This document shows positions 19,010 to 63,899 of a DNA stretch of 64,000 nucleotides, in pieces. The DNA is from an uncultured Spirochaetia bacterium. Its GTDB lineage: Bacteria; Spirochaetota; Brachyspiria; Brachyspirales; Brachyspiraceae. The translations under genes were made by a program, and so were the position numbers. Below the pieces are notes generated by a model. That model saw only the letters and a list, made by a program, of their open reading frames with translations. It had not been told where the DNA came from and searched no databases. The stretch spans positions 1-64,000 of the forward strand of contig CAMRBQ010000001.1 in NCBI GenBank assembly GCA_947040495.1, written 5' to 3'. Positions within the stretch are counted from its first letter, which is position 1. Each line of letters begins with the position of its first letter.

Positions 19010-21673
19010 TTAAATCGCATTAAAAACATCTGTTGTATGTTTGAGCTTGTCTTCAAATTCTGTTTCTTTTCTTTTTTCTGTATCAATAGCCGACTGTTTT
19101 GCTTTACTTATAAAGTTTTCATTGCCTAATTTTTTTCGCACTATTGAAAGCTCTTTTTCATACTGTTCTATATCTTTTTTCAGCCTATTCTTTTCGCTTT
19201 CAATATCGATAACACCCATCAAACATAAAGCAATTTGCCCGCCTTCAAAAATTTTAACAAAGCTATTTTTCTCTCTAGTAAACTCGCTAGACTCTACTAT
19301 ACTAACAACAGAGGGTGCAATCATATTATTAATATCACTTTCAAATATACTCACCGCCTCTTTGAATAAATCATTTGTATATACTAGTTTTATGTCTAAT
19401 GATACAGAATGAGCAATATTAAAATTAACTTTAATATTTCTAATTGAAGAGATAATATTTATAGATATATCAAAATATTTCTCAATATCGATATTAAAAT
19501 TTGATTCATTATAAATTGGATATTCACTAATAGTAATAGCCTCTTTATCCGAATATTTTTTTGGTAGATGAGTAAATATATGCTCCGTAATAAAAGGCAT
19601 AAATGGATGAAGTAATGATATACTTTTTTCAAGCACATAAAGTAGAACAGAAATAGTTCTATCCTTAGCCTCGCCACCAAGCCTCAAGTCAAACTTTGAA
19701 AGTTCAATATACCAATCGCAATAATCATTCCAATAAAATTTATATATAGATTGAGAAGCCTCATCAAAACGAAACTCATCTATCTCTGTCGATACATTTT
19801 TAATAGTGCTTTCAAGCCTTGATATTATCCATTTATCTTTTGCTGTAAGAGTATCATTTTTTATATATTCATTTATATCTTTTATATTATTTTCATCATC
19901 AATATTTGAAAATATAAAACGGCTGCTATTATATATTTTATTTGCAAACTTCGCACCCATCTTAAACAATTCTCTATCGAGTAAAATATCTTGCCCTAGG
20001 CTCGTAATAAATGATAGGGTAAATCTAAATGCATCTGCCCCATATTCCTCTATAATTTCGATAGGGTCTATACCATTGCCAAGGCTCTTTGACATTTTTT
20101 TCCCATGTTTATCTCGAACGAGCCCATGAAGATATATATTTTTAAACGGGATATTTTTCATAAAATGAGTCCCCGCCATAACCATTCGAGCTATCCAAAA
20201 AAATATAATATCATACGCAGATACCAATGTGCTTGTTGGATAAAAATATTGTAAATCTTCTGTATTTTTTGGCCAGCCTAATGTGGAGAAAGGCCATAGC
20301 CATGATGAAAACCAAGTATCAAGTACATCTTCATCTTGCCTAATATTTTTTGATTGACACTCTTCGCATTCTGTTGCTATCGTTTTTGATACAGTCATAT
20401 GAGAGCAGTCATCACAATACCAAACAGGGATTCTATGCCCCCACCAAAGCTGACGGCTTATACACCAATCTCTTATATCAGTTAGCCAATGATTATATGT
20501 ATTTATCCAACGCTCGGGATATATATTTATACTACCATCTGCTATAACAGACAATGCCTTTTCAGCAAGGGGCTTCATCTTTACAAACCATTGGTCGCTA
20601 TAATATGGTTCAATTGCATTATGGCAGCGATAACAATGTCCAACCTGATGTTTTATATCATTTTTGCCAATATATAAACCAAGGCTTTCCAAGTCTTCAA
20701 TTATTTTTTTGCGTGCATCCTCACGAGTAAGAGCAATATAATCATTTGGGGCATTATCATTTATGCTACCATTTTCAGTCAATATATTTATTATAGGAAG
20801 ATTATATTTTTGTGCCAATACAAAGTCATTCATATCATGGGCAGGTGTTATCTTTAATGCACCTGTTCCAAACTCCATATCAACATATTCATCTTTTATC
20901 AAACGAAGTTCTCTATTTACAACAGGCAAAATAATTATTGTATCATTGCTTAAATGCTTATACCTTTCATCATTTGGATTCACCGCAATAGCAGTATCAC
21001 CAAGCATTGTCTCTGGTCTTGTAGTTGCTATTTCAATATATTCATCACTGTCTTTTATTTTATATTTGACATGATACAAAGCACCATCTGTTTCTTTATG
21101 GTCGACCTCATCATTTGCAAGGGCTGTCCCACAACTAGGACAATAATTTATAAGATACTTCCCTCTATATATAAGCCCTTCTTTATATAGGTTCACAAAC
21201 ACTTCTTTGACAGCATCGCTTAGCCCTTCATCAAGGGTAAATCTTTCACGCTGCCAATCGACACTACTTCCAATTCTTTTTAATTGTTCTGTAATTGTTT
21301 TATGATGTTCTTCTTTCACTTTCCAAGTTAATTCAATAAATTTATCTCTACCAAAATCATGCTTATTTTTGCCTTCACTTTTTAATCTACGTTCAACAAC
21401 ATTCTGTGTTGCAATCCCCGCATGGTCAGTACCAGGCACCCATAATGCAGAATAGCCTTTCATACGGTGATATCTAATCAGTATATCCTGAAGTGTATTA
21501 TTAAGCCCATGCCCCATATGTAGCACACCTGTAACATTAGGTGAGGAAATAACTATGGTATAAGGCTTTTTATTTTTATCTACTTTTGTATGAAAATAGC
21601 CTTGTTCTATCCAATTGACATATATATCATGTTCTATTTCTTTGGGATGAAAAATTTCACCCAACGCTTTCAT
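19010..21673 (-). CDS. valS: Valyl-tRNA synthetase
   Basis: ValRS charges tRNA-Val and edits threonine. The 887-residue protein has HMGH (52-55), the editing domain (with ATTRPETMLGDTAIAVNP), KMSKS in HGKKMSKSLGNGIDP and the C-terminal coiled coil (from about residue 815, ESEKNRLKKDIEQYEKEL). All expected elements are present, so this is the working copy. The start is supported by AAAGGA 8 nt before the ATG. Its promoter region and first 78 codons lie inside a 308-bp block repeated at 24523-24830, with one base difference. That difference makes residue 70 Arg here and His in the copy. Confidence 0.97.
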   Translation of the reverse strand: MKALGEIFHPKEIEHDIYVNWIEQGYFHTKVDKNKKPYTIVISSPNVTGVLHMGHGLNNTLQDILIRYHRMKGYSALWVPGTDHAGIATQNVVERRLKSEGKNKHDFGRDKFIELTWKVKEEHHKTITEQLKRIGSSVDWQRERFTLDEGLSDAVKEVFVNLYKEGLIYRGKYLINYCPSCGTALANDEVDHKETDGALYHVKYKIKDSDEYIEIATTRPETMLGDTAIAVNPNDERYKHLSNDTIIILPVVNRELRLIKDEYVDMEFGTGALKITPAHDMNDFVLAQKYNLPIINILTENGSINDNAPNDYIALTREDARKKIIEDLESLGLYIGKNDIKHQVGHCYRCHNAIEPYYSDQWFVKMKPLAEKALSVIADGSINIYPERWINTYNHWLTDIRDWCISRQLWWGHRIPVWYCDDCSHMTVSKTIATECEECQSKNIRQDEDVLDTWFSSWLWPFSTLGWPKNTEDLQYFYPTSTLVSAYDIIFFWIARMVMAGTHFMKNIPFKNIYLHGLVRDKHGKKMSKSLGNGIDPIEIIEEYGADAFRFTLSFITSLGQDILLDRELFKMGAKFANKIYNSSRFIFSNIDDENNIKDINEYIKNDTLTAKDKWIISRLESTIKNVSTEIDEFRFDEASQSIYKFYWNDYCDWYIELSKFDLRLGGEAKDRTISVLLYVLEKSISLLHPFMPFITEHIFTHLPKKYSDKEAITISEYPIYNESNFNIDIEKYFDISINIISSIRNIKVNFNIAHSVSLDIKLVYTNDLFKEAVSIFESDINNMIAPSVVSIVESSEFTREKNSFVKIFEGGQIALCLMGVIDIESEKNRLKKDIEQYEKELSIVRKKLGNENFISKAKQSAIDTEKRKETEFEDKLKHTTDVFNAI

Positions 21674-21743
21674 AAATTTAGTCCTTTACAATGCTACTTT
21701 TTATGCATGTAGTATACAATATTATATAAGAAAATCTATATAT
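21436..21743. repeat. 308-bp direct repeat, valS-proximal copy
   Basis: This block holds the valS promoter region, ribosome site and first 78 codons. It matches 24523-24830 base for base at a constant offset of 3087, with no indels and a single difference (C at 21465, T at 24552). On the minus strand upstream of the ATG, a TATACT box and an AAAGGA ribosome site are visible, so both copies carry a start region. The two copies flank the decayed ABC/GH123 segment. Confidence 0.95.
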
Positions 21744-21777
21744 TTTGAATTTTATGTGCTGGATATAAAACTTTTAT

Positions 21778-21818
21778 AAAAACAATTAGGATATACTATA
21801 ATTATCAGTATACCCTAA
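21778..21818 (-). terminator. Terminator downstream of the substrate-binding-protein pseudogene
   Basis: A 12-bp stem (21786-21797 with 21807-21818, one mismatch) and 9-nt loop are followed on the minus strand by a T-rich run. It ends the transcript of the ABC/GH123 remnant before the inner copy of the valS promoter. Confidence 0.75.
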
Positions 21819-21842
21819 TGATTTTTCTAGTTATTTTATAAT

Positions 21843-22335
21843 TTAATATGTTTTAAATTTATAAAAGGCAGCTATTATTTTTTTACCATCTACTTCAGTA
21901 TAATCTAAAACTTGCTGAGGAGTTAACTCCCCATTTAACATTTTTTGAATATTTTTTAATAAAACATCGTATAGGCGGGCAGCCCCATTAATTTTATCAT
22001 ATTTTAATTTCAAATACTCTGATTGCAGTTAATCTACAACATAAGGTGCATAGGCAAATTTATCCTTTATAGCAGGGACATAATCCCATTCAAATTTGGC
22101 AGAATGTTCAAAGATAACAGACCCCGTAGGAGGTGTAATAATGAAAGCAGATTTGCCGTCAACAAAAAACTAAGAAGCACTTTCAAATGTAAAAAATGAA
22201 CCTTCAGGTTGGATTTTATATTTATCTCTCATATGCAAACGGTGCCAACCATAAATCAATTGTGTTTTTAGATTCTTTGCCACCACCACATGCTAAAACA
22301 CTAAAACAAATAATTAACAAACTCAAATTTTTCAT
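21843..22335 (-). pseudogene. Sugar ABC transporter substrate-binding lipoprotein, decayed
   Basis: The remnant begins with a lipoprotein signal (CFSVLACGGGKESKN), followed by NTIDLWLAPF and an early stop. After a frame change the reading resumes as DKYKIQPEGSFFTFESAS, stop, FFVDGKSAFIITPPTGS, then FEWDYVPAI, VVD, stop, LQSEY, and runs to KIIAAFYKFKTY. The GKSAFII and WDYVPA blocks and the C-terminal helix fit extracellular solute-binding proteins of sugar ABC systems. About 165 codons remain of a family that usually has over 400, so a large internal deletion has occurred. Both internal stops (TAG, TAA) could have arisen from Gln codons by C-to-T changes. It follows the GH123 gene, and its lost partners were presumably the permeases. 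Confidence 0.8.
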
Positions 22336-22377
22336 TACTAATTTAATACTTTCCTCCTAATTTATAACCTAAATATT

Positions 22378-24015
22378 TTATAACAATTGCATAATTTTTT
22401 GATTGATAATTCCCCTAGTTTCTAATATATATTCAGAGCCATGAGGATATTTAGAAAATGTCATATCATTTTGAGAATCAATAATTTTAAGCACTTCTTC
22501 TTTGCTACTTAATTTTTCTAACATTTTCATGGCACGTAAATCATATAATGCCTCACTAAAAACTTTCAACCTAATAGAAACATCTGCTTGATAGTCTGCC
22601 CCTGGGTATACTAAAAAAGAATCGCCTGAAGGGAAAACACATCCTGCATCTGTAACTTTATAAGGGTCTATCGCTTTTTTAGAATGCATCGTATTCCAAA
22701 AATTATAACCCCAATGTAAAAATCCACAAATATCAAATTTAAACATTTGATAGCCTATAATACGATTTCTTGCACTTGGCATAGAAAAAAATCGATTGCT
22801 TACATCTATATATTGTGCTGTACAATAATATACCCAAAGAGGATCAACTTTCGCCTCTAAGAATGGCTCTATATGATTATTGGCTGGAATTGGACATTCA
22901 ACGGCACCATGTTTATAAAAATCAAAATCTGATAGAGCATCAATGAGAGGGAAGTCTAGAATATATGGCTTTATGATGTCTTTCGCTTTTTTGTATGAAT
23001 CGAGGGCTTCTAAAGATGGCTCATCAGAGACATGGAAGAAACATTGTTTTTCAATACCCAAAGACTTAATTTCTTTCACCAAATTCGACAAAAATTCCTT
23101 CAAAAATGTTGTATATTCTTCAGACAAAGCAGCAGTATGCCATCCAAACATATGTTTGGCAACGCCTTCTGTATGAACTATAACCTTAGGAGCATATGCA
23201 GCCCCCCATTGAGAAAATAAATGCGAAATTTCAAAATATTTAATGCCCACTTTTTTGGCAATCATAACCCATTTTTTAAAGTTATCAAAATTAAAACTAT
23301 ATTTATTATCATCATACATAATTTTGATAAGCTGCACTGTCAACCTTTCACCACCTATTTCTGTATCAAGTGGCGGGGTTAATACAGGAGTCAAAACCAT
23401 ATTCATGCCATGCTCTACAGAGGCTTTAAGATAATTTTCTACCAGTTGCCAATATTCATCGCCAAAAACATCTACATTATAATAGTTACAAAGACAGTCG
23501 GTATGAAACCACTGTGTACAATATAATTCTTGTTCTGGTAAATTTGCATCAATTAACACAAAATCATATACTACAGAATTAATCTCTTTACCCTCTTTAT
23601 AAAATTTAATGCTAATACTATATTTCCCACCCTTTGCTTGAGGGCTCGCCATTAATTCTAACCACAAAGATTTCCAATAAGACGGGGTAACTCTTATAAT
23701 ATTATTATTTCTCTCTTCTAATAAATCAGGGAAAAGACCGGGCTCTGTTGTCAAATAGTTATCATCTGTTTTCGGATGAGCAGCATATTCAGACGGCATG
23801 AGCTTTACGTCATAAAGTTTTACTTTCATCCCATTAGGAACACCTTCTACTTTGCAGCTAAACTCTTCTGAAACATCTGCCAAAGTTGGAAGACTATAAG
23901 CAACCTGAAAAGAATGGTTTTCATTTTTAAAAAATGAATTACCACACATAACTGTATTTGGTTCTTGCTTAGGAAACACTTTTTCCAAAGAACTTAAAAC
24001 ACGCAATTCTATCAT
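22378..24015 (-). CDS. GH123/DUF4091-like glycoside hydrolase (candidate N-acetyl-beta-galactosaminidase)
   Basis: This 545-residue protein has an N-terminal beta-sandwich-like part (about 1-170) and a TIM-barrel region. The barrel region carries the acidic pair HVSDEPSLEAL (D-E near residue 330), which corresponds to the Asp-Glu catalytic pair described for GH123 enzymes acting by substrate assistance on N-acetyl sugars. Other family-like segments are QWFHTDCLCNYYNVDVFGD and GFLHWGYNFWN. No signal peptide is visible, so the enzyme would act in the cytoplasm on an imported glycan. It is flanked by a truncated permease and a decayed binding protein. The ORF itself is intact, but its import system is broken here. 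Substrate identity is inferred from family only. Confidence 0.72.
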   Translation of the reverse strand: MIELRVLSSLEKVFPKQEPNTVMCGNSFFKNENHSFQVAYSLPTLADVSEEFSCKVEGVPNGMKVKLYDVKLMPSEYAAHPKTDDNYLTTEPGLFPDLLEERNNNIIRVTPSYWKSLWLELMASPQAKGGKYSISIKFYKEGKEINSVVYDFVLIDANLPEQELYCTQWFHTDCLCNYYNVDVFGDEYWQLVENYLKASVEHGMNMVLTPVLTPPLDTEIGGERLTVQLIKIMYDDNKYSFNFDNFKKWVMIAKKVGIKYFEISHLFSQWGAAYAPKVIVHTEGVAKHMFGWHTAALSEEYTTFLKEFLSNLVKEIKSLGIEKQCFFHVSDEPSLEALDSYKKAKDIIKPYILDFPLIDALSDFDFYKHGAVECPIPANNHIEPFLEAKVDPLWVYYCTAQYIDVSNRFFSMPSARNRIIGYQMFKFDICGFLHWGYNFWNTMHSKKAIDPYKVTDAGCVFPSGDSFLVYPGADYQADVSIRLKVFSEALYDLRAMKMLEKLSSKEEVLKIIDSQNDMTFSKYPHGSEYILETRGIINQKIMQLL

Positions 24016-24049
24016 AATAATAACTCCATTTTGAAATAAAAAATATATT

Positions 24050-24760
24050 TTAAGATTCTTTTGAACCTGTCATAGCAATCCCTTCCACAAATGTTTTTTG
24101 TAAAATAATATAGAGTATAAATGGGGGCAAAAATATAAGAGTAGGGCCCGCCATAATCAATCCATAGTTGGCCAAATAATTACTTTGCAATGTTGCCAAT
24201 GCTAAATTTAAAGTATGCAATTCAGAATCTGTAGTAACAACAAAAGGCCATACAAAGTCATTCCATATTCCAATAAAAGTAAATATCGTTAGTGAAATTA
24301 AAACTGAACGCATCAACGGCAACATAATATGAACAAAAATTTGAAATTCTGAAGCACCATCCAATACAGCAGATTCAGTTATTTCATCAGAAACGCGCTC
24401 TACAAATTGTTGTATTAAAAATGTACCAAAAGCAGATACCACAGGCAAAAAAAGAGCAAGGTGCGTATTGATAAGCCCTAATTCTTTAATAATAAAAGTA
24501 GGGATTAATTTTACACTACCCAGCACCCATAATGCAGAATAGCCTTTCATATGGTGATATCTAATCAGTATATCCTGAAGTGTATTATTAAGCCCATGCC
24601 CCATATGTAGCACACCTGTAACATTAGGTGAGGAAATAACTATGGTATAAGGCTTTTTATTTTTATCTACTTTTGTATGAAAATAGCCTTGTTCTATCCA
24701 ATTGACATATATATCATGTTCTATTTCTTTGGGATGAAAAATTTCACCCAACGCTTTCAT
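24050..24760 (-). CDS. Chimeric ORF: ValRS N-terminus fused in frame to the C-terminal half of a sugar ABC permease
   Basis: Residues 1-79 equal the ValRS N-terminus (including HMGH at 52-55) apart from R70H. From residue 80 the chain becomes the C-terminal 157 residues of a MalG/UgpE-type permease: hydrophobic segments, the cytoplasmic EAA-like loop (DGASEFQIFVHIMLPLMR), the segment IGIWNDFVWPFV and the terminal FVEGIAMTGS motif. A normal permease has about 280 residues and six membrane segments, so roughly the first half is missing. The valS promoter and ribosome site are copied with the fusion, so it may be expressed ahead of the GH123 gene. Function as a synthetase or transporter is unlikely. 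An assembly artefact is a serious alternative. Confidence 0.85.
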   Translation of the reverse strand: MKALGEIFHPKEIEHDIYVNWIEQGYFHTKVDKNKKPYTIVISSPNVTGVLHMGHGLNNTLQDILIRYHHMKGYSALWVLGSVKLIPTFIIKELGLINTHLALFLPVVSAFGTFLIQQFVERVSDEITESAVLDGASEFQIFVHIMLPLMRSVLISLTIFTFIGIWNDFVWPFVVTTDSELHTLNLALATLQSNYLANYGLIMAGPTLIFLPPFILYIILQKTFVEGIAMTGSKES

Positions 24761-24830
24761 AAATTTAGTCCTTTACAATGCTACTTTTTATGCATGTAGT
24801 ATACAATATTATATAAGAAAATCTATATAT
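24523..24830. repeat. 308-bp direct repeat, outer copy at the chimeric ORF
   Basis: This is the second copy of 21436-21743, in the same orientation. It ends at 24830, after which the sequence differs completely from that upstream of valS. Its inner edge (24523) falls inside the chimeric ORF, exactly where ValRS sequence gives way to permease sequence. Confidence 0.95.
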
Positions 24831-24963
24831 CATTATTAGAAATGTCAAACAAAATATAAAATTTCTATAAATATATATTTTAATATTGCATTCAATATTA
24901 AAGTGTGATAAAGTAAAGCCATGTCAATCATATAATTTACACATAAGATATTTTATTCAACTA

Positions 24964-25014: not shown

Positions 25015-25968
25015 ATGAAAACATTTAAAATGATCGGTAGTTTTGTTGGTAAATACATGGCTGTAATTGTTTTAATTATAGCAGCTATTGCTCTATTTCG
25101 ACCTATAACATTTACTTTTATAAAGACTAGCTATATCAGCCCACTTCTTATGATAGTAATGTTTGGAATGGGACTTACATTGAAAGCATCCGATTTTGCG
25201 ATAGTATTTTCGAGACCTAAAGATGTATTACTTGGAACTCTTGCCCAATTCACAATAATGCCTTTATTAGCTTTTCTACTAACAAAAATATTTAAGCTGC
25301 CACTTGAACTTGCAGTTGGGGTTATACTTGTTGGAACATGCCCGGGTGGCACTTCTTCAAATGTAATGACATATCTTGCAAGGGGTGATGTTGCCCTTTC
25401 TATTGGGATGACTGCTGTATCAACTATGCTTGCACCTTTATTAACACCATTACTTACATTACTTTATGCAGGTCAAAAAGTTGATGTAGAAATTATTGCT
25501 ATGTTTATATCTATAATTAAAGTTGTTATTATACCTATAGGACTTGGTGTATTGGTAAACAGATTCTTTGGAAAAATTACAGAAAAAATCGTTGATCTAT
25601 TACCACTAGTATCTGTAATTGCTATTGTTGCTATCATTGCTGCTGTTGTTTCTGCAAATAGTGCCAGACTTTTAAATACTGGAATTTTATTAGTGGTAAT
25701 TGTTATACTACATAATATACTTGGATATATTTGCGGATATTTTGTAGGAAAGGTTTTGAAGATGGATGAGCAAAGATGCAATACAGTTTCAATTGAAGTT
25801 GGGATGCAAAACTCTGGTCTTGCAACTGCACTCGCTTCTATGCATTTTGCCGCTATGCCATTAGCCACAGTAGCTGGTGCTTTATTTAGTGTATGGCATA
25901 ATATCTCAGGTTCTATACTTGCCAATATTATGGCTGTTCGTATGGATAAAACAAACAAAAAATCATGA
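25015..25968 (+). CDS. Bile acid:sodium symporter family (BASS/SBF) transporter
   Basis: This 317-residue inner-membrane protein has about nine or ten hydrophobic segments. It has the BASS signatures LMIVMFGMGLTLKASDF (about 44-60) and VGTCPGGTSSNVMTYLARGDVALS (split crossover region, about 106-129), with EVGMQNSGLATALA in the second half. Members move bile acids, pantothenate or other organic anions with sodium. The pattern is closest to the PanS-like bacterial branch, but the substrate is not fixed by sequence. Its stop codon overlaps the next gene's start by 4 nt (ATGA), so the two are translationally coupled. Confidence 0.9.
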   Translation: MKTFKMIGSFVGKYMAVIVLIIAAIALFRPITFTFIKTSYISPLLMIVMFGMGLTLKASDFAIVFSRPKDVLLGTLAQFTIMPLLAFLLTKIFKLPLELAVGVILVGTCPGGTSSNVMTYLARGDVALSIGMTAVSTMLAPLLTPLLTLLYAGQKVDVEIIAMFISIIKVVIIPIGLGVLVNRFFGKITEKIVDLLPLVSVIAIVAIIAAVVSANSARLLNTGILLVVIVILHNILGYICGYFVGKVLKMDEQRCNTVSIEVGMQNSGLATALASMHFAAMPLATVAGALFSVWHNISGSILANIMAVRMDKTNKKS

Positions 25969-50338: not shown

Positions 50339-51853
50339 TTACTTTACTTTTATATATCTTGTTGTTTGCTTTTTCCTTGTAGACTCAAGCATTTCTAAAC
50401 CAGTATCATAATCAAGCTGCCTAGGCTCATATTCTTCATTTTCTCTTTGTCTTGTATAGCCATCATTTAGCCAAACGGGTTGTTTATCTTTTCGCCATGC
50501 TCTTGCCGCCCATTGATAACCCCTATAGAGATCCCTAGTTTTATTCATATTTTCTAATAAAGCATCATGCAATTTCTCTCTTTGTTTAGAATAAGCCTCA
50601 TCATTAATCAAGTTTTTCATTTCAAATGGGTCATTTTCCATATCATAAAACTCATCTGTATCAAGCAAATTAATAACAAGTTTATATTTTTCTGTTATAG
50701 CTGCCCTCATCATTTGAAGCCCACCAAAACCGTCATGGTCGACTTCATACCTTGTAAACTCAGAAAAAATGATATCATTAATTTTTGTATTAGTATCATA
50801 AATTTGTGAAAGTATGCTTTTACCATCCAACCACTTAACAATAGGAAGATCCATATAATCCAAAATAGTTGGAACAATATCTATATGAGATGCAGGCTCT
50901 GTTATAATTTTAGCTTTTTCACCACCTTTTATTATTAACGGAATATTTGCGACCTCTTTATACGCTGTTGCATTTTTTGCTCGCAGTTTATGTGCCCCCA
51001 ACATGTCGCCATGGTCTGAAGTAAAAATAACCAAGGCATTCGGTATGGTTTCAGATATTTTATCGAGAACTCTACCAATTAAATCATCAACGAAAGAGTT
51101 GCAACCTAAAAATAGAGACAAAGTTTCTGAGGGTTTATTAATTTCATTTTTTGTTAATTTTATACTATCCCCTGCCCAAAGTTTTTGCATCAATGGCTTG
51201 TTTTCAAGATTGTCATCAAAGTTTGGATTATCAGGGAATTTAAAATCAGAATACATAGTATTATATGGAGCAGGGCAAAGGCTCGGATCATGAGGCTCAT
51301 CATAAGAGAGTGCTAAAAAGAAGTCATCATCTTTACTTTTTTCAATATAGTCAATAGCCCTCTTAGTACATCGATAACCATAGGTAAATTCTTCGCTAAA
51401 GTTTTCATCATAAGAAGTCTTTTCATCCCTAGAACGTAGTCTATCCTCATCACTTAATTCTTCTAGATACATTCTCATATCATACCAATAATCTTTATCC
51501 CAACCTTGAGGACAAACACCATTGCCAAAATAATCACCGCCATCTAAATGCCATTTCCCAATGTATCCAGATTTTATACCTTTGTCTGATAATCTCTGAC
51601 CTATAGTTTTTATATTATCACCCAAAGCAATGGAGTTTGTAACCATTCCATTTGAATGAGGAAATAAGCCTGTAAAAATCGCAGAACGAGCTGGGCCACA
51701 AACAGGCTGGGCACAATAAGCATTTTCATATTTAATCCCCTCACCCGCCAATTTGTCAAGATTTGGTGTTATCATATCCTTATTTCCATAACAACCTAAC
51801 ATGTCCTTTCTTGTAGTATCAGTCATTATAAAAACAATTTGTTTTTTATTCAT
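50339..51853 (-). CDS. Second cytoplasmic Cys-type sulfatase
   Basis: This is a 504-residue type I sulfatase. It has IVFIMTDTTRKDMLGCYG at the metal site, the formylglycine motif CGPAR in QPVCGPARSAIFTG, SGYIGKWHLDGG, IFTSDHGDMLGAH and FYDMENDPFEMKNLIND. No signal peptide is present, so it acts in the cytoplasm. It is the last gene of a run with two sodium-solute symporters, 25 bp after the second, under a divergent GntR-type regulator. Maturation needs the anSME encoded about 8 kb away. It differs clearly from the sulfatase at 36.9 kb, so the substrates probably differ. Confidence 0.9.
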   Translation of the reverse strand: MNKKQIVFIMTDTTRKDMLGCYGNKDMITPNLDKLAGEGIKYENAYCAQPVCGPARSAIFTGLFPHSNGMVTNSIALGDNIKTIGQRLSDKGIKSGYIGKWHLDGGDYFGNGVCPQGWDKDYWYDMRMYLEELSDEDRLRSRDEKTSYDENFSEEFTYGYRCTKRAIDYIEKSKDDDFFLALSYDEPHDPSLCPAPYNTMYSDFKFPDNPNFDDNLENKPLMQKLWAGDSIKLTKNEINKPSETLSLFLGCNSFVDDLIGRVLDKISETIPNALVIFTSDHGDMLGAHKLRAKNATAYKEVANIPLIIKGGEKAKIITEPASHIDIVPTILDYMDLPIVKWLDGKSILSQIYDTNTKINDIIFSEFTRYEVDHDGFGGLQMMRAAITEKYKLVINLLDTDEFYDMENDPFEMKNLINDEAYSKQREKLHDALLENMNKTRDLYRGYQWAARAWRKDKQPVWLNDGYTRQRENEEYEPRQLDYDTGLEMLESTRKKQTTRYIKVK

Positions 51854-51878: not shown

Positions 51879-53579
51879 TTATTCAATATTTTTCTTTTTT
51901 GGAAGAAAAATTTTAAAAGCCACGATAGAAATAACTAGAAATATAGAAGTTATTATAGCAAACTTTGGATATACTTCACCAAATGAAAGCCCTATAAGAC
52001 CAATAGGTGATAACAGAACATAGAAATAAATTAGAAATGACACAACTATGGCAGAAAAAGAATTAGCATATTTCCAAGGAATTGCAGGGACAACATTTTT
52101 TTCACTTTGTTTGTATGCTTGTTTCATTGGAGCAATTTTTCCAATCACAAACATTATGGTTACACATAATATAAACAGTATTCCTAAAAGATGTAAAAAA
52201 TTTATAGGTATTTTTAATACATATTGAACTAATCCATATATAACCATAAATGTGAAAAGTGAAATTTTTGCAGCAATCGGGGGGATTTTTTTTGAAAAGA
52301 ATCCAACTAGAACAATAACCAATGTTGGAACATTAAAAAATCCCATAAATCGCTTCATAAATATAAAAAACCCTTCAGGCGTATCTCCAAAATATGGAGC
52401 AATGAAAATAGCACAAAGACCCACAAATAAAGCAAATATTTTACCAACTTTAACTAAATTTTGATCCCCTATCGCAGGTTTAAAAATAGGTTTGTAAATA
52501 TTCAAGCAAAATAATGTAGAAGCCGAGTTGAGTGCTGAGTTAAATGTACTTAGTACAGCACCAAAAATAACAGCACCAAAAAAACCTAATAAAGGTGCAG
52601 GAAGAACTTGATTGACTAACATAGGATATGCCATATCAGGATGTGCAACATTGCCTGAGTTGAGAGCAAAAACTATTAGACCTGGCACAGACAAAGCAGC
52701 AGGGACTAAAATAATTAAAAAACCCGCATACAAAGCACCTTTTTGACCTTCAGCTAAAGATTTTGCACCTAAAGCCCTTTGTACTATAACTTGATTAGTA
52801 CACCAATAAAAAGTATTTATTAAAAGCATTCCTGTAAAAATTCCAGAAAAAGGAACAGGACTATCAGCACTGCCAATTACATTTGTCTTGTCAGGGAATT
52901 TCACAACAAGTGTTTCTACCCCTGTAAAAAAATTCCCATCTCCAAGTATAGAAAATCCGATAATTGGAATAAGAAGCCCGCCCAAAACTAATCCAATACC
53001 ATTAATTGTATCAGAAATGGCAACAGCTTTTAATCCACCAAATATAGCATATATTCCGCCAATTATACCAATAGCCCAGATACTTATAATAAGAGCAGCA
53101 GGTTCACTTACATTAAGTATTTTACTTACATCAAAAAGGGCATTTATAGCAATCGCCCCAGAGTATAATACCGTAGGAAGCATTATGCCAATAAGACTTA
53201 TCAAAAATAAAACAGCCACAATATTTCTTGTCGCTTTATCATATCTTTCTTCTAGAAATTCAGGAACAGTAGTAAAACCACTTTTTAGATATCTCGGCAA
53301 AAAATATAAAGCCATAAAAACCAATGATACACTAGCTGTAACAGACCAAGCAACAACTGAAAGCCCACCACTAAATGCCTGACTATTCATCCCTATCAAT
53401 TGCTCTGTAGAAATGCTTGTAAGTAAAAGAGAACCCGCTATTACACCCCCAGTCAAACTTCGCCCACCCAAAAAATAACCTGTGTTCGATTTTAAATCTT
53501 CTTTTTTAGTAAATTTCCAAGAAATGAATGCTACTAAAAGAGTAAAAAATATAAATGTTACTATAGCTAAGATATTCAT
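51879..53579 (-). CDS. Sodium:solute symporter (SSS family), copy 1
   Basis: The 566-residue inner-membrane protein has about 13-14 segments, with the SSS signatures GYFLGGRSLTGGVIAGSLLLTSISTEQLIGMNSQAF and YAIFGGLKAVAISDTINGIG, and the WCTNQVIVQRALGAKSLAEGQKG block typical of the sugar (SglT-like) branch. The start at 53579 is preferred, as it matches the paralogue and has GGGGG upstream. A longer in-frame start at 53642 is less likely. It is paralogous to the next gene, and the two proteins are visibly similar along their length. Confidence 0.9.
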   Translation of the reverse strand: MNILAIVTFIFFTLLVAFISWKFTKKEDLKSNTGYFLGGRSLTGGVIAGSLLLTSISTEQLIGMNSQAFSGGLSVVAWSVTASVSLVFMALYFLPRYLKSGFTTVPEFLEERYDKATRNIVAVLFLISLIGIMLPTVLYSGAIAINALFDVSKILNVSEPAALIISIWAIGIIGGIYAIFGGLKAVAISDTINGIGLVLGGLLIPIIGFSILGDGNFFTGVETLVVKFPDKTNVIGSADSPVPFSGIFTGMLLINTFYWCTNQVIVQRALGAKSLAEGQKGALYAGFLIILVPAALSVPGLIVFALNSGNVAHPDMAYPMLVNQVLPAPLLGFFGAVIFGAVLSTFNSALNSASTLFCLNIYKPIFKPAIGDQNLVKVGKIFALFVGLCAIFIAPYFGDTPEGFFIFMKRFMGFFNVPTLVIVLVGFFSKKIPPIAAKISLFTFMVIYGLVQYVLKIPINFLHLLGILFILCVTIMFVIGKIAPMKQAYKQSEKNVVPAIPWKYANSFSAIVVSFLIYFYVLLSPIGLIGLSFGEVYPKFAIITSIFLVISIVAFKIFLPKKKNIE

Positions 53580-53693
53580 AGAACAACCCCCAATTATTGG
53601 TTTAATATTAAAAAAATTTACAAGCCCAAAATAATACAACAATTTTTAGTTGAAATATAATTTACAAGTAAAATCTATTAATTCATCAAATAT

Positions 53694-55376
53694 TTAAATC
53701 TTTTTTTGTTTCATATTTACCATAAAAAATGGTGCAACTGTAATAACTATATATAAAACAGTAATTACCCAACCATTTATACTACTTCCACTAAGTAAGC
53801 CGACCTTAGAAAACAAAGCATATACCCATACAACTGTTGTAAATGAAGCAAAAGCCATAGGATATAAATATTTCCAATTTTTCATGTCTATTGCAGGTGT
53901 AAATGCTTTAACTTTAGGGACTTGTCGTGGTACTATTAACCCCCAAACAAACATTATAGCAGCACAAGCAACTGATAAAATACCTTGTATGTATAAGAAA
54001 TGGATAGGCACTTTTAGTTGGAATGAAAATAACCAATAACAAAACATAAAAAAGAACATAACAAACTTGGCAGATATTGCAGGCGGCTTTTTGGTTGCAA
54101 AGCCCATCATAATAATTGTAACCAAAGGAATATTAAAGAAGCCCATAAAACGTCTCATGAAATCGTAAAGACCCGCTGGAGCATTGGCTATCATAGGAGC
54201 TACCCACATACAAACAATAGCCATTATTATACCAAAATACATCCCTACTTTTATCAATTTTTTATCATCAATATCTTTCTTAAAGAATGGTTTATAAATA
54301 TCTACACAGAAAATTGTTGAAGCCGAATTTAAGATAGAGTTAAATGTTGACAATATAGCACCAAAAAGTACAGCACCAAAAAAACCTGCTAGAGGTTTTG
54401 GTAATAACTGAGTTACAAGATACGGATAAGCCATATCATTTTTTTCAATCACACCATTTCCATACAAAGCAAATGCAAGAATACCAGGGAGTACTAATAT
54501 AAAAGGAACAAGAATTTTTAAAAATCCAGCAAAAAGAACACCCTTTTGTCCTTCTGCCAAAGATTTTGCTCCCAAAGCCCTTTGAATTATCGATTGATTA
54601 GTACACCAATAAAATAAATTAACCAGTAGTATACCAGAAAATAAAGTTCCAAAAGGGACGGTGCCATTAGAAGGACCAATAGCATTCATTTTTTCAGGGT
54701 GTTCAACTATAAGACGATTAAAACCTTGGAGTAAATTACCATCACCATATAAGGACAAAGCTAATACAGGAATAATAGTACCACCGATAATAAGACCAAT
54801 ACCATTATAAGTATCAGAAATCGCGACAGCCTTTAAGCCCCCAAAAACAGCATAAATACTACCGATAATACCAATAAACCAAACAGTAATAACAATAGCT
54901 GTTTTAGTATCTACATTGAGAAGTTCCTTTACATTAAACAAAGGGAAAAGTGCCAAAGCCCCTGAATATAAAACAGAAGGCAGCATAATAACTGTAAAGG
55001 CGATTAGAAATAAAATACTTATTAATATACGTGTCCATTTATCATAACGCTCTTCAATAAACTCTGTAATTGTTGTCATCCTACGTTTTAGATAAGCGGG
55101 AAGAAACAGTAATCCCATCAAAGCCAAAGGTATTGCTGATGTTATTTCCCAAGCGATAACTTGCATACCAGCCCCAAATGCTTGCCCATTAAGACCAACC
55201 AATTGTTCTGCCGACAGATTAGTCAGCAACAATGAACCGGCAATAACTATTCCAGATAAACTACGACCACCAAGGAAATAATCATCATTAGTCTTTATTT
55301 TATCTTTTCGTATAGTCACATAAGTAGCTACTGCAACTAAAATTGTAAAAAATAGAAAAGAAATTATAGTTAGCAT
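53694..55376 (-). CDS. Sodium:solute symporter (SSS family), copy 2
   Basis: This 560-residue paralogue of the downstream gene has YFLGGRSLSGIVIAGSLLLTNLSAEQLVGLNGQAF, YAVFGGLKAVAISDTYNGIG and WCTNQSIIQRALGAKSLAEGQKG. It is the first gene of the symporter-symporter-sulfatase run and is divergent from a GntR/UTRA regulator, with a good promoter at 55414-55442. The gap to copy 1 is 114 bp. The SglT-like motif suggests a sugar or sugar derivative, and a sulfated one is likely given the sulfatase. That is inference. Confidence 0.9.
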   Translation of the reverse strand: MLTIISFLFFTILVAVATYVTIRKDKIKTNDDYFLGGRSLSGIVIAGSLLLTNLSAEQLVGLNGQAFGAGMQVIAWEITSAIPLALMGLLFLPAYLKRRMTTITEFIEERYDKWTRILISILFLIAFTVIMLPSVLYSGALALFPLFNVKELLNVDTKTAIVITVWFIGIIGSIYAVFGGLKAVAISDTYNGIGLIIGGTIIPVLALSLYGDGNLLQGFNRLIVEHPEKMNAIGPSNGTVPFGTLFSGILLVNLFYWCTNQSIIQRALGAKSLAEGQKGVLFAGFLKILVPFILVLPGILAFALYGNGVIEKNDMAYPYLVTQLLPKPLAGFFGAVLFGAILSTFNSILNSASTIFCVDIYKPFFKKDIDDKKLIKVGMYFGIIMAIVCMWVAPMIANAPAGLYDFMRRFMGFFNIPLVTIIMMGFATKKPPAISAKFVMFFFMFCYWLFSFQLKVPIHFLYIQGILSVACAAIMFVWGLIVPRQVPKVKAFTPAIDMKNWKYLYPMAFASFTTVVWVYALFSKVGLLSGSSINGWVITVLYIVITVAPFFMVNMKQKKI

Positions 55377-55586: not shown

Positions 55587-56297
55587 ATGCCAAAACAAAA
55601 AAATATTAAGTATATTGAAATTGCTATTGAAATAAAAAAAACACTCGCCAAAACAAAAGACTATGATTTCCCACTTGAATCCGAGCGTAATCTTGCCAAA
55701 AAATTTGGGGTTAGCAGAGATACCATTCGTAAAGCCTTAGATGTTCTTCATAAGCAAAGTTTGATAAATAAGAAAAGTCGAAGCGGGCATTTCCCATTAC
55801 CTCCTGTCATTAATAGGGATTTATACTCTATTAATACGATTGCCGAAGATATAGAGCCGCTCCATTTAGATTATAACATTGATATTATTCGTATTACAAA
55901 GCAAAAATATTTACCAAAAGAACTTGCAAGTATTTGTAAAGATATTAATTTTCATAAGATAGAAAGGCGTATTATTATTGCAAATATTCCTACAGTATAT
56001 GAAGAACATTATATTCCATCTTCTATATTCCCAAATTTTCCAAAAGAATCTGCCTCTGATATCATTCCTTTTATAGAAAAAAAATTGAAATTGGTAATCA
56101 GAGATTCTCATCAAGATATTTCTATTAAAAAACCAACAGATAAGGTATTGAAGTCTTTAAATATAGATTACCCCATGCTTCTACATATTACCTCTCACAA
56201 TTATCTGTCTGACGGTAGAATTTTCCAGCTAACATCTCAATTTTTTCACCCTAATTATAATTTTAAAATACACTTAGGTCGTAAAAATAATATCTAA
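55587..56297 (+). CDS. GntR-family transcriptional regulator with UTRA effector domain
   Basis: The 236-residue protein has an N-terminal GntR winged helix (FPLESERNLAKKFGVSRDTIRKALDVLHKQSLINKKSRSGHF) and a C-terminal UTRA-type ligand domain (DIIRITKQKYLPKELASICKD, IERRIIIANIPTVYEEHYIPSSIFPNF, SHNYLSDGRIFQLTSQFFHPNYNFKIHL). UTRA regulators of this kind sense small sugars or their phosphates. It is divergent from the two symporters and the sulfatase across a 210-bp gap with an operator-like site. Confidence 0.88.
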   Translation: MPKQKNIKYIEIAIEIKKTLAKTKDYDFPLESERNLAKKFGVSRDTIRKALDVLHKQSLINKKSRSGHFPLPPVINRDLYSINTIAEDIEPLHLDYNIDIIRITKQKYLPKELASICKDINFHKIERRIIIANIPTVYEEHYIPSSIFPNFPKESASDIIPFIEKKLKLVIRDSHQDISIKKPTDKVLKSLNIDYPMLLHITSHNYLSDGRIFQLTSQFFHPNYNFKIHLGRKNNI

Positions 56298-60093: not shown

Positions 60094-60828
60094 TTACTTC
60101 CATTTACTATTGAAAGCATATCTATAAGTTAAAGCTACACTAAAATCATCCTGAAACCAATCAGCTACACTATCTACACCAGCAGAAGTAGCATAAGGTC
60201 TTAACAGATTTAAGTCATAACCCACTCTTACACCTATATAATGTGAAGTAGCAATTCTAAATTCTTGACCAAGAGCAAAAGCAATGTCTAATGTAAATGG
60301 AGCTGCCTTTATCATAATAGCATCATCACCTTTTATTTCTTCTATATTACCAGTATCATAATTATAATCTTTACCTGACTGTGTTTGATAGGCAGAAATA
60401 GGGATGCCAAGTTTGACACCAGCAGAAAGATATGTTACACCCAATCTATACTCAAACTGACCACGTAGCATAACAGGGATATATATCTCGCTTCTTGTAG
60501 TAGCAGAAATAGTATCCATATCACCAAATTTCTGAGTATAATTGAATGTAGAGTATTTAAATCCAACACCTGTTTCTAATGCTAAAAAAGGAATAAATTC
60601 AAACATAACATTAACTTGAGGTACCAAGTTAAAAGTTATTTTCTTCATGACATCAGGATTTTCTTTGACGACCTCATTGATACTCTTAACCATATCTGTA
60701 GCATCTGTACCATGGAATATTGGCATACCAGCTCCAAACGATGCTCCTACCGAAATCTCTACTGCATAGAGGCTTGTATTTATAGCAAGCAAAGCAATCA
60801 TCACACATAACAATTTGTTTAACTTCAT
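60094..60828 (-). CDS. Outer-membrane beta-barrel protein, paralogue 1
   Basis: The start at 60828 (MKLNKLLCVMIALLAINTSLYA) gives a signal peptide of 22 residues and has AGGAG upstream. A longer in-frame start at 60927 would bury it. The mature part alternates polar and hydrophobic residues in short strands and ends SVALTYRYAFNSKWK, with aromatic and basic residues as in outer-membrane barrels. It shares layout and many segments with the genes at 62037 and 62948: VGASFGAGMPIF, EFIPFLALETGVGFKYS, PVMLRGQFEYRLGVTYLSAGVKLGIP and HYIGVRVGYDLNLLRPYATSAG. An eight-stranded pore or surface antigen is likely. Function unknown. Confidence 0.75.
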   Translation of the reverse strand: MKLNKLLCVMIALLAINTSLYAVEISVGASFGAGMPIFHGTDATDMVKSINEVVKENPDVMKKITFNLVPQVNVMFEFIPFLALETGVGFKYSTFNYTQKFGDMDTISATTRSEIYIPVMLRGQFEYRLGVTYLSAGVKLGIPISAYQTQSGKDYNYDTGNIEEIKGDDAIMIKAAPFTLDIAFALGQEFRIATSHYIGVRVGYDLNLLRPYATSAGVDSVADWFQDDFSVALTYRYAFNSKWK

Positions 60829-60934
60829 AGTGTTAAATCTCCTGATAAATAAAATCGGAACATTAAGTTCCATGTAAAAAAAGCAAAAGTCAATCGTATA
60901 ACCATAAAAATTAGAAAAAATTAGCAAAATAAGC

Positions 60935-61828
60935 CTATCTTATAACCATTTCACCACTTGCACTATATATTTCATACCATTCAGAATGTTTGATTTTTAT
61001 ATCCAAAGCATGAACTGCGATACCAAGCCTTTCAATATTACTACTGCCAGAAATAGCAAGAGCAGCAACAGGGTGATGCATTATCCAAGCATATATAATC
61101 GCTTCAGGTTTTTCATTATATCTATCTGCTATCTCTTTTATTTTATCAAAAGCCTTTTTATAACGCTCTTCATCTGAAGTAAATATATTGCCACCCGCAA
61201 GTGGAGACCATATCATAGGATGTATTTTTTTTTCTGTAAGAACATCTATCATGCCACTTTTAAAATGTTCAAAACATACAGGGCTAAGTTCTATTTGATT
61301 TGTTACAAGTATATTTTCTGATGCATTATTTAGGGCATTAAATTTATATGGGTCAAAGTTTGAAACACCAGCCTCAATAATTAATCCTTCTTTTTTTAAA
61401 TCAATCAAAGCCCTGGCCGTTTCATAAAAATCAATACAAGGGTCTTCACGATGTATAAGATATAAATCGATATAATCTGTATTAAGCCTTTTTAAACTCG
61501 CATGGCAGCTTTCTTTTACTCTTTTATATGTTGTGTCATAATAAGTAAAATTTTTTCCATTTATATTTTGTATAGAAATACCTGTCTTTGAAACAATCTC
61601 AACTTTATTTCTAATCGATTTGTCAAAAGAAAAAGCCTCCCCCATCATAGATTCGCAAGCACCACCAGCATAAATTTCAGCGGTATCAAAAGTAGTTACA
61701 TCAAGCTCTATACATTTATTCATAAAAGAAGCTAAATCTTCTTTTGAAAAATTCCAGCTATCTAATCTCCAAAACCCCTGTACAATAGAAGAAAGTAAAA
61801 GTTCTTCACTGAATTTAATTTTTTTCAT
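60935..61828 (-). CDS. Aldo/keto reductase (YdhF-like)
   Basis: This 297-residue AKR has the tetrad in place: DTAEIYAGGACES (Asp and Tyr), IVSKTGIS (Lys) and YLIHREDP (His). MIWSPLAGGN and the cofactor-binding AISGSSNIERLG follow near the C-terminus. Enzymes of this group reduce aldehydes or sugars with NADPH. It is inserted between two beta-barrel genes on the same strand, 108 bp upstream of the first. The substrate is not known. Confidence 0.88.
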   Translation of the reverse strand: MKKIKFSEELLLSSIVQGFWRLDSWNFSKEDLASFMNKCIELDVTTFDTAEIYAGGACESMMGEAFSFDKSIRNKVEIVSKTGISIQNINGKNFTYYDTTYKRVKESCHASLKRLNTDYIDLYLIHREDPCIDFYETARALIDLKKEGLIIEAGVSNFDPYKFNALNNASENILVTNQIELSPVCFEHFKSGMIDVLTEKKIHPMIWSPLAGGNIFTSDEERYKKAFDKIKEIADRYNEKPEAIIYAWIMHHPVAALAISGSSNIERLGIAVHALDIKIKHSEWYEIYSASGEMVIR

Positions 61829-61976
61829 ACAATTTTCCTTATGCTAATTAATATTTTGTAAACAGAGTCTACTTATTAAAACAGCAAATGTCAATATAAA
61901 AATTATGAAAAGGGTTTTAATATATTTAAATATTATTCATACATTGATTCGCTCTACCTATATAGTATATGGGAAA

Positions 61977-62005
61977 CAAAAAGCCCCACCGATAAAGGCA
62001 GGGCT
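61977..62005 (-). terminator. Terminator after the second beta-barrel gene
   Basis: AGCCCCACC (61982-61990) pairs with GGCAGGGCT (61997-62005), with T residues after it on the minus strand. The hairpin is a copy of the one at 60003-60031, which points to duplication of gene plus terminator. Confidence 0.88.
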
Positions 62006-62036
62006 TATAATAAATAATATTAATTATTAATAAAAA

Positions 62037-62750
62037 CTATTTTTTCCACTTACTATTAAAAGCATATCTATAAGTAAGACTTCCACTCATGTTATCTTGA
62101 TAAAAAGAAGGGTCACTATTTCCACCAATGCTTTTTATAGGGGATAATAAATTTAAGTCATAATTAAATCTAGCTCCAAAATAATGAGATTTACCAAGCC
62201 TAACCTCAAAACCCAAAGCAAAACCTAAATCTATAGCAAAATCATTATTTTCAATATAGCCTTGAGGAAGAATAGCTTCGCCACCTTTTCCATAATCTAA
62301 GGCAATATAATCGCTACTTGGTATAAAAAACTTAGGGCCAATAGAGCCATATAAAAGCATAATACCAGCTTCAAATTGACCACGCAACATAAGCGGTATA
62401 GTATAACCTGTTTTATCAAATAATGGATCTTCACTATCAATCAATGGAAATTTATCAGATATATTCATATCATTTAAACGTAAACGAGAAGTCCCATATC
62501 CAAACCCTGTTTCTATTGCAAAAAATGGTGCAAGTTCAACCATAAGGTCGACACCGAATCTATAAGACAAACCATGACCATTTTCAAAACCTATATCATA
62601 TAAACCCGCAACATAAGTAGTATAATCGTCTCCACGAAATATAGGGCTACCAATATCCGCAGAAATACCTACAGAAATTTCAATTGCATAAGCGGCAGTA
62701 TTAATTGTAAGCAAAATAATTATCGCACATAGCAATTTATTAAACTTCAT
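62037..62750 (-). CDS. Outer-membrane beta-barrel protein, paralogue 2
   Basis: The 237-residue protein has a signal peptide (MKFNKLLCAIIILLTINTAAYA) and the barrel pattern shared with its neighbours: ISVGISADIGSPIFRG, ELAPFFAIETGFGYG, IPLMLRGQFEAG, GPKFFIPSSDY, FAIDLGFALGFEVRLGKSHYFGARFNYDLNLLSP and the ending MSGSLTYRYAFNSKWKK. It is the most diverged of the three. It ends with the duplicated terminator and lies 197 bp downstream of paralogue 3. Confidence 0.75.
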   Translation of the reverse strand: MKFNKLLCAIIILLTINTAAYAIEISVGISADIGSPIFRGDDYTTYVAGLYDIGFENGHGLSYRFGVDLMVELAPFFAIETGFGYGTSRLRLNDMNISDKFPLIDSEDPLFDKTGYTIPLMLRGQFEAGIMLLYGSIGPKFFIPSSDYIALDYGKGGEAILPQGYIENNDFAIDLGFALGFEVRLGKSHYFGARFNYDLNLLSPIKSIGGNSDPSFYQDNMSGSLTYRYAFNSKWKK

Positions 62751-62947
62751 AATATTAAATTTCCTTATAAATATAATTTTAAATAAAAATATTAAAAATA
62801 ATCTAAAGTCAATACAAAAAGTATAGAGAATATTTTATATATTTAAATTGTTACTCATATATTGATTCTCTCTACTTAAGCATAAAGAATATTACTTATA
62901 AAAGTTGGTTTAGGAGAAAATAATATTAATTATTATCTTCTCTTCTT

Positions 62948-63703
62948 TTATTTCCTATTAAAAGTATATCTATAAGTAAGAGCTACCGCAAAATTATCCT
63001 GAAACCAATCTGTATCATCTAGCATTGTTTCTGCTTCACTAGGAACAGTATCACCAGATTCTGCAACTACACCAGCAGAAGTAGCATAAGGCCTTAACAC
63101 ATTCATATCATAACCAACTCTTACACCTAAATAATGTGAATTGGCAATTTTAAATTCTTGACCCAAAGCAAAGGCTATATCCAATGTAAATACAGATGCT
63201 TTAGCTATTATTATCTTCTTATTATTAAGAGTTGGGTATTCATTTTCTTGTAATAAATAATCTGAAACAGGGATGCCAAGTTTTACACCAGCGGAAATAT
63301 ATGTTACACCTAATTTATATTCAAATTGACTGCGTAGCATAACAGGGATAAAAAATTCGCTTCTTGTCACGATTTTACCCCCAGTTTTAATATCACCATC
63401 TTGAATACTATCACTATAATTTAATGTGGAATATTTAAAACCCAAGCCTGTTTCAAGTGCCAAAAAAGGGATGAACTCGAGCATCAAGTCTACTTGTGGT
63501 ACTATAGCAAATGTTGTTTTTTTAAAATTTGGAAAAGTTTCTTTAAGTAAACCGACATTCCCCATTCTCTTTTTATAATCTAGCCCACGAAAAATCGGAA
63601 GCCCTACTCCAAATGCCCCCCCTAGCGAAATATCTAGCGCATAGGCTGATGTATTTACAACAATCAAAGCAACTATTATGTATAACAATTTATTTAACTT
63701 CAT
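62948..63703 (-). CDS. Outer-membrane beta-barrel protein, paralogue 3
   Basis: The start at 63703 (MKLNKLLYIIVALIVVNTSAYA) gives a normal signal peptide; a longer in-frame start at 63763 is rejected. The body is close to paralogue 1 (LEFIPFLALETGLGFKYSTLNYS, KLGVTYISAGVKLGIPVSDY, GVRVGYDMNVLRPYATSAG) and ends FAVALTYRYTFNRK. An acidic insertion (SGDTVPSEAETMLDDTD) near residues 217-233 is not in the others and could be an external loop. No terminator of the AGCCCC type follows. A weak hairpin without a T run lies near 62913-62943. Confidence 0.75.
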   Translation of the reverse strand: MKLNKLLYIIVALIVVNTSAYALDISLGGAFGVGLPIFRGLDYKKRMGNVGLLKETFPNFKKTTFAIVPQVDLMLEFIPFLALETGLGFKYSTLNYSDSIQDGDIKTGGKIVTRSEFFIPVMLRSQFEYKLGVTYISAGVKLGIPVSDYLLQENEYPTLNNKKIIIAKASVFTLDIAFALGQEFKIANSHYLGVRVGYDMNVLRPYATSAGVVAESGDTVPSEAETMLDDTDWFQDNFAVALTYRYTFNRK

Positions 63704-63899
63704 AATTTTTAAAATCCATAAATCCATATTTTTATTTATCTTAAAAATAATTCTAACATACATACATGCTAAGTCAAGATGATTTTTCCATACTTAGAAA
63801 ATATTATATATTCAAAAAAAATACTTTTTTATTACTGCAAACATTCAATAGAAAACTATAAAAATTTGATTATCACAAAAAATCTGTTATTATATAGTA

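Follow-up and report, generated by a model that had tools for sequence, protein, structure and literature searches.

The window, which comprises the whole 64-kb stretch of DNA analysed, carries two nearly identical copies of the promoter region and 5' end of valS, one belonging to the complete gene and the other fused in frame to the C-terminal part of a sugar permease gene, with the remains of a glycan utilization operon in between. We regard it as about an even bet that this arrangement is the scar of a real and fairly recent chromosomal rearrangement, in which a tandem duplication and a deletion affected an operon that was formerly located upstream of valS.

The direct repeat of the valS 5' end

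The direct repeat consists of an inner copy (21436-21743, minus strand), which contains the valS -10 region, the 5' leader and codons 1-79, and an outer copy (24523-24830, minus strand), the 3' end of which is fused to permease sequence. Over 308 bp the two copies show no indels and one mismatch, at a spacing of 3087. Given its length and identity the repeat is not due to chance; no second repeat of such length and identity was detected in the 64-kb window, and the whole assembly (2.55 Mb in 165 contigs) contains just these two copies of the 308-bp sequence. The sole mismatch is, on the plus strand, a C at 21465 in the inner copy and a T at 24552 in the outer copy, where it changes a conserved Arg to His. 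Since Arg is present at this position in all relatives inspected (23/23), the outer copy has the derived base, as would be expected for a functionless copy.

The order on the minus strand is the divergent SBF gene, the outer copy, the permease C-terminal part, the GH123-like gene, the binding-protein remnant, a terminator, the inner copy with the complete valS, pheS and pheT, the last two identified by their translations. A sequence-only reading of this DNA had described two 308-bp copies one base apart and without indels, which the comparison of 21436-21743 with 24523-24830 bears out, and had attributed the inner copy to a complete valS; the gene that starts there (19010-21673, minus strand) indeed encodes a complete valyl-tRNA synthetase of 887 aa. 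Its proposal that the promoter and 5' end of valS were duplicated recently is supported.

Among the genomes searched, the genus of the source organism (g1) is represented by this genome alone, and the family relatives are G001-G028. The valS proteins of these relatives are 63-66% identical to the protein encoded in the window where they are full length. The source organism is a member of this family, in which the large genus g3 is taken here to be Brachyspira.

The valyl-tRNA synthetase-permease fusion

At the junction at 24523, valS codon ~79 meets permease codon ~114, and the joined sequences share few bases (GTGC, followed by mismatches), as would be seen in illegitimate recombination. The frame remains open until the permease stop codon, 34 bp ahead of the start codon of the glycosidase gene, which results in a chimeric ORF of 236 aa (24050-24760, minus strand) with the N-terminus of the synthetase joined in frame to the C-terminal part of the permease. 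The 236-residue chimera proposed earlier, with the outer copy running in frame into the C-terminal half of a sugar ABC permease, was thus recovered as one ORF containing both Pfam domains, tRNA-synt_1 at residues 17-81 (E 1.5e-19) and BPD_transp_1 at residues 101-225 (E 2.5e-14). The permease sequence (24053-24522, minus strand) derives from the C-terminal end of a MalG-type ABC permease (~residues 114-269 of 269) and is 58% identical to residues 114-269 of the intact 269-aa permease of the Brachyspira-family genome G014. The synthetase part corresponds to a small portion of the catalytic domain. As only the first ~79 synthetase residues are present and the first ~113 permease residues are missing, the fusion is unlikely to act as either a synthetase or a permease, and the protein is probably functionless.

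The glycosidase gene and the binding-protein pseudogene

The intact GH123-like gene that had been placed after the chimera is a full-length ORF of 545 aa (22378-24015, minus strand) encoding a glycosidase of the GH123_cat family, with a complete match to PF13320 (361 bits, profile positions 1-324 of 324). Its closest solved relative is the beta-N-acetylgalactosaminidase NgaP2 (PDB 8k2l; E 3.5e-156, full-length alignment), a Group 4 enzyme near GH123 in which an Asp-Glu (DE) motif is catalytic (PMC11087588). The motif HVSDEP of the window enzyme, containing the catalytic Asp-Glu, aligns with the Asp-Glu motif of NgaP2. The likeness to NgaP2 and the Group 4 beta-N-acetylgalactosaminidases consists of a full-length alignment and a conserved motif, whereas the window gene sits in the remnant of a spirochaete ABC operon and encodes a predicted enzyme known here from its sequence. 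The gene is present as a single copy in its own genome and its product is 48% identical to the GH123 protein of G014. GH123 was detected in only two of the 29 family genomes searched, G014 and the genome of the window, which suggests either gain by transfer or repeated loss within the family.

The glycosidase gene is followed by a pseudogene of a sugar-binding lipoprotein (SBP; 21846-22335, minus strand) from the binding-protein family that also serves the intact operons described below, which retains the lipoprotein start, consists of the N-terminal 37 aa and C-terminal pieces, and has two internal deletions, a frame change and two stops, in agreement with the earlier description of a broken binding protein. 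Compared with the proteins of G014 and G323, which are the only convincing matches of the C-terminal pieces, ~200 and ~50 residues have been lost in the two deletions. This decay points to a transport system that was already failing, if the SBP was not a redundant second copy. The operon is closed by an intrinsic terminator-like hairpin with a 14-bp stem (21785-21819, minus strand; -18.1 kcal/mol and z -4.45 for the region 21774-21830).

Counterparts of the operon in other genomes

Intact operons with the order SBP-permease F-permease G-GH123, contiguous and on one strand, are present in three other spirochaetes: G014 (L047), G290 (L079) and G323 (L084). The sequence-only reading had suggested a search for an intact permease-permease-GH123-SBP operon; intact operons were found, but with the SBP gene first and not last. 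The window shares with them the gene families, the common strand and a permease gene directly before GH123. It differs from them in that its SBP remnant comes after GH123 and not at the head of the operon, and in lacking permease F and the 5' part of permease G. These two missing segments, and any SBP gene at the head of the operon, could not be located in the source assembly, which is 96.6% complete. The best other homologues in the same genome are 37% (F) and 36% (G) identical, as would be expected of paralogues from other sugar operons, so that the missing permease part is counted as not found.

As the three related operons begin with the SBP gene, the order in the window requires an earlier rearrangement or a second SBP gene: either the order has changed in this lineage or the remnant is a second, older copy. 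The GH123 loci of Clostridia leave the gene order unsettled: among 30 inspected, GH123 is accompanied by both permease genes in operon order in one, and in five more a permease gene points away. In G014 the intact operon (G014:C32:209-6361) is followed by an epimerase-like gene, assigned by eye. In-frame stops are also found in other sugar ABC permease genes of the source genome (G000:C86:1212-2009, C28:5240-5461 and C34:18365-19213), which suggests a wider decay of sugar-uptake loci.

Promoters and gene neighborhood of valS

Regarding the promoters, the inner copy has a promoter-like site TTCAAA-17-TATAAT (21721-21749, minus strand) 47 nt upstream of the valS ATG, with the -35 element just outside the repeat. 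The outer copy keeps TATAAT but with a poor -35 (ATAATG), and a second promoter-like site, TTGACA-17-TAGATT (24820-24848, minus strand), which straddles the repeat border, sits 12 bp further up. In most Brachyspira valS genes a TTGAAA element is conserved ~16 bp ahead of the -10, and its equivalent in the inner copy is TTCAAA. With random flanks of the same composition, 7% of trials yielded a promoter that equalled the inner one. The inner copy has the better valS promoter, which weakly favors the inner copy as the original context, SBP-valS as the original order and the outer border as a secondary junction.

The outer copy is flanked by an intact, divergent gene of an SBF-family transporter (bile-acid:sodium symporter type; 25015-25968, plus strand). 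Comparison of the outer upstream region with other Brachyspira-family loci revealed nothing beyond AT-rich promoter-like similarity at unrelated genes. In the eight relatives for which the region around valS was compared, valS is without the SBF, TPR, PEGA and pheST neighbors, and the ancestral gene order is therefore not readable from these relatives.

Elsewhere in the window, two adjacent and similar sodium:solute-symporter-like genes (51879-55376) are located beside a sulfatase-like gene (50339-51853) and a gene for a GntR-type regulator (55587-56297), all named from their translations only. The region 60094-63763 encodes three related small exported proteins (at 60094, 62037 and 62948), two of which share a 136-bp stretch that is 85% alike; these are probably a local family of outer-membrane proteins.

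Origin of the rearrangement

From the repeat, the junctions, the missing genes and the state of the remnants, all of which are observed, we infer the following events and their order. An ABC operon for a GalNAc-containing glycan, ending permease-GH123-SBP-terminator, would initially have been located directly upstream of valS and on the same strand. An illegitimate, low-homology tandem duplication would have joined valS codon ~79 to permease codon ~114, giving the junction that is seen at 24523. A deletion reaching from the intergenic region at SBF to a point close upstream of the copied valS -10 would then have removed the upstream copy of the locus and left a single operon remnant enclosed by the two valS 5' ends. 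Duplication followed by deletion was among the origins offered by the sequence-only reading and is the best fit of these. Several points weigh against it: two events are required and the ancestral order is not directly observed; the end of the deletion must fall within ~20 bp of the copied -10; the promoter comparison (7%) is weak, and any alternative would be biased in the same way by the requirement for valS expression; and the SBP gene, last in the window, leads the three related operons.

It is possible, though in our judgement doubtful, that the permease end, GH123 and the SBP remnant were instead inserted into an original SBF-valS arrangement with duplication of the 308-bp target, either by single crossover of a circle that carried a piece of the valS 5' end or by repair of a staggered break. 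The layout would also suit an insert between duplicated target copies, the SBF leader in the outer intergenic region looks intact, a TTGACA element there points at valS, and the SBP gene is heavily decayed yet the flanking repeat is near identical, as if the DNA had arrived decayed. With an insertion, however, the good -35 would be a chance feature of the inserted end (the 7% above), and a circle would need a prior valS-permease joint. The single crossover of a circle, as proposed earlier, gained no independent support: a plasmid search with the 2.8-kb insert gave no match, a scan of viral contigs with the GH123 protein gave no relative, the DNA between the repeats contains no integrase or replication gene, and the 64-kb window is free of tRNA genes. 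Integration of a plasmid or phage by this route was rejected on the lack of mobile-element genes and of a matching circular element, and a foreign origin on the codon usage of the glycosidase gene and the third-position G+C of the glycosidase and permease frames, which are close to those of neighboring genes and thus native-like.

Promoter capture and the meaning of the fusion

Silent genes are known to come under the control of new promoters through tandem duplication, for example his in Salmonella (Anderson and Roth, 1978) and, in the long-term experiment with E. coli, citT (Blount, 2012), as cited in PMC11111574. The window resembles these cases in having a promoter copy upstream of a formerly upstream gene and a low-homology join: the native promoter and gene start have been copied upstream of the permease part and GH123 in the same orientation, and the join at 24523 has little homology. 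It differs from them in that most of one unit copy is gone, with only the valS end present twice and the rest of one copy presumably deleted, in that the event is natural and known from sequence alone, and in that the join is a coding fusion. The outer copy could supply the promoter, ribosome-binding site and start codon for the 236-aa fusion, and transcription from it might continue into the intact glycosidase gene; it is plausible that the glycosidase is expressed constitutively from this promoter.

Compatible with either real origin, but unlikely, is that the copied valS promoter was retained by selection for the glycosidase expression that it would sustain after loss of the operon promoter. 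The glycosidase gene has 0 lesions in 545 codons compared with ~4 in the SBP gene, the chance of which at equal decay is ~0.5-2% by a crude rate comparison, and the frame of the fusion is intact as far as the permease stop shortly before the GH123 start. The lesion contrast is a crude hint that GH123 may be under constraint; the old promoter may, however, have kept the gene until recently, and no complete uptake system is left at the locus. We give still less credence to the stronger claim that a synthetase promoter captured in nature keeps an orphan GalNAc-releasing enzyme constitutively expressed via a selected fusion while its own uptake operon decays.

Least probable is an assembly artefact or strain mixture, i.e., that the junctions do not exist in one cell: a chimeric assembly had been suggested, the assembly is fragmented and a typical short read would not span the repeat, but two false joins with very little shared sequence (at the 24523 and 21744 borders) would be needed, neither junction has identity long enough for a false k-mer join, and the copies are one base apart, with an in-frame fusion and no sequence gaps.

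The arrangement is probably an ordinary rearrangement scar of a kind known from laboratory evolution rather than a new system, and it opens no new question. If real, it would provide a natural snapshot of duplication-deletion rewiring, with both junctions still readable, from a spirochaete lineage in the course of losing its genes for sugar transport, and would show how functionless fusion ORFs, which can be annotated as synthetase or permease, may arise.
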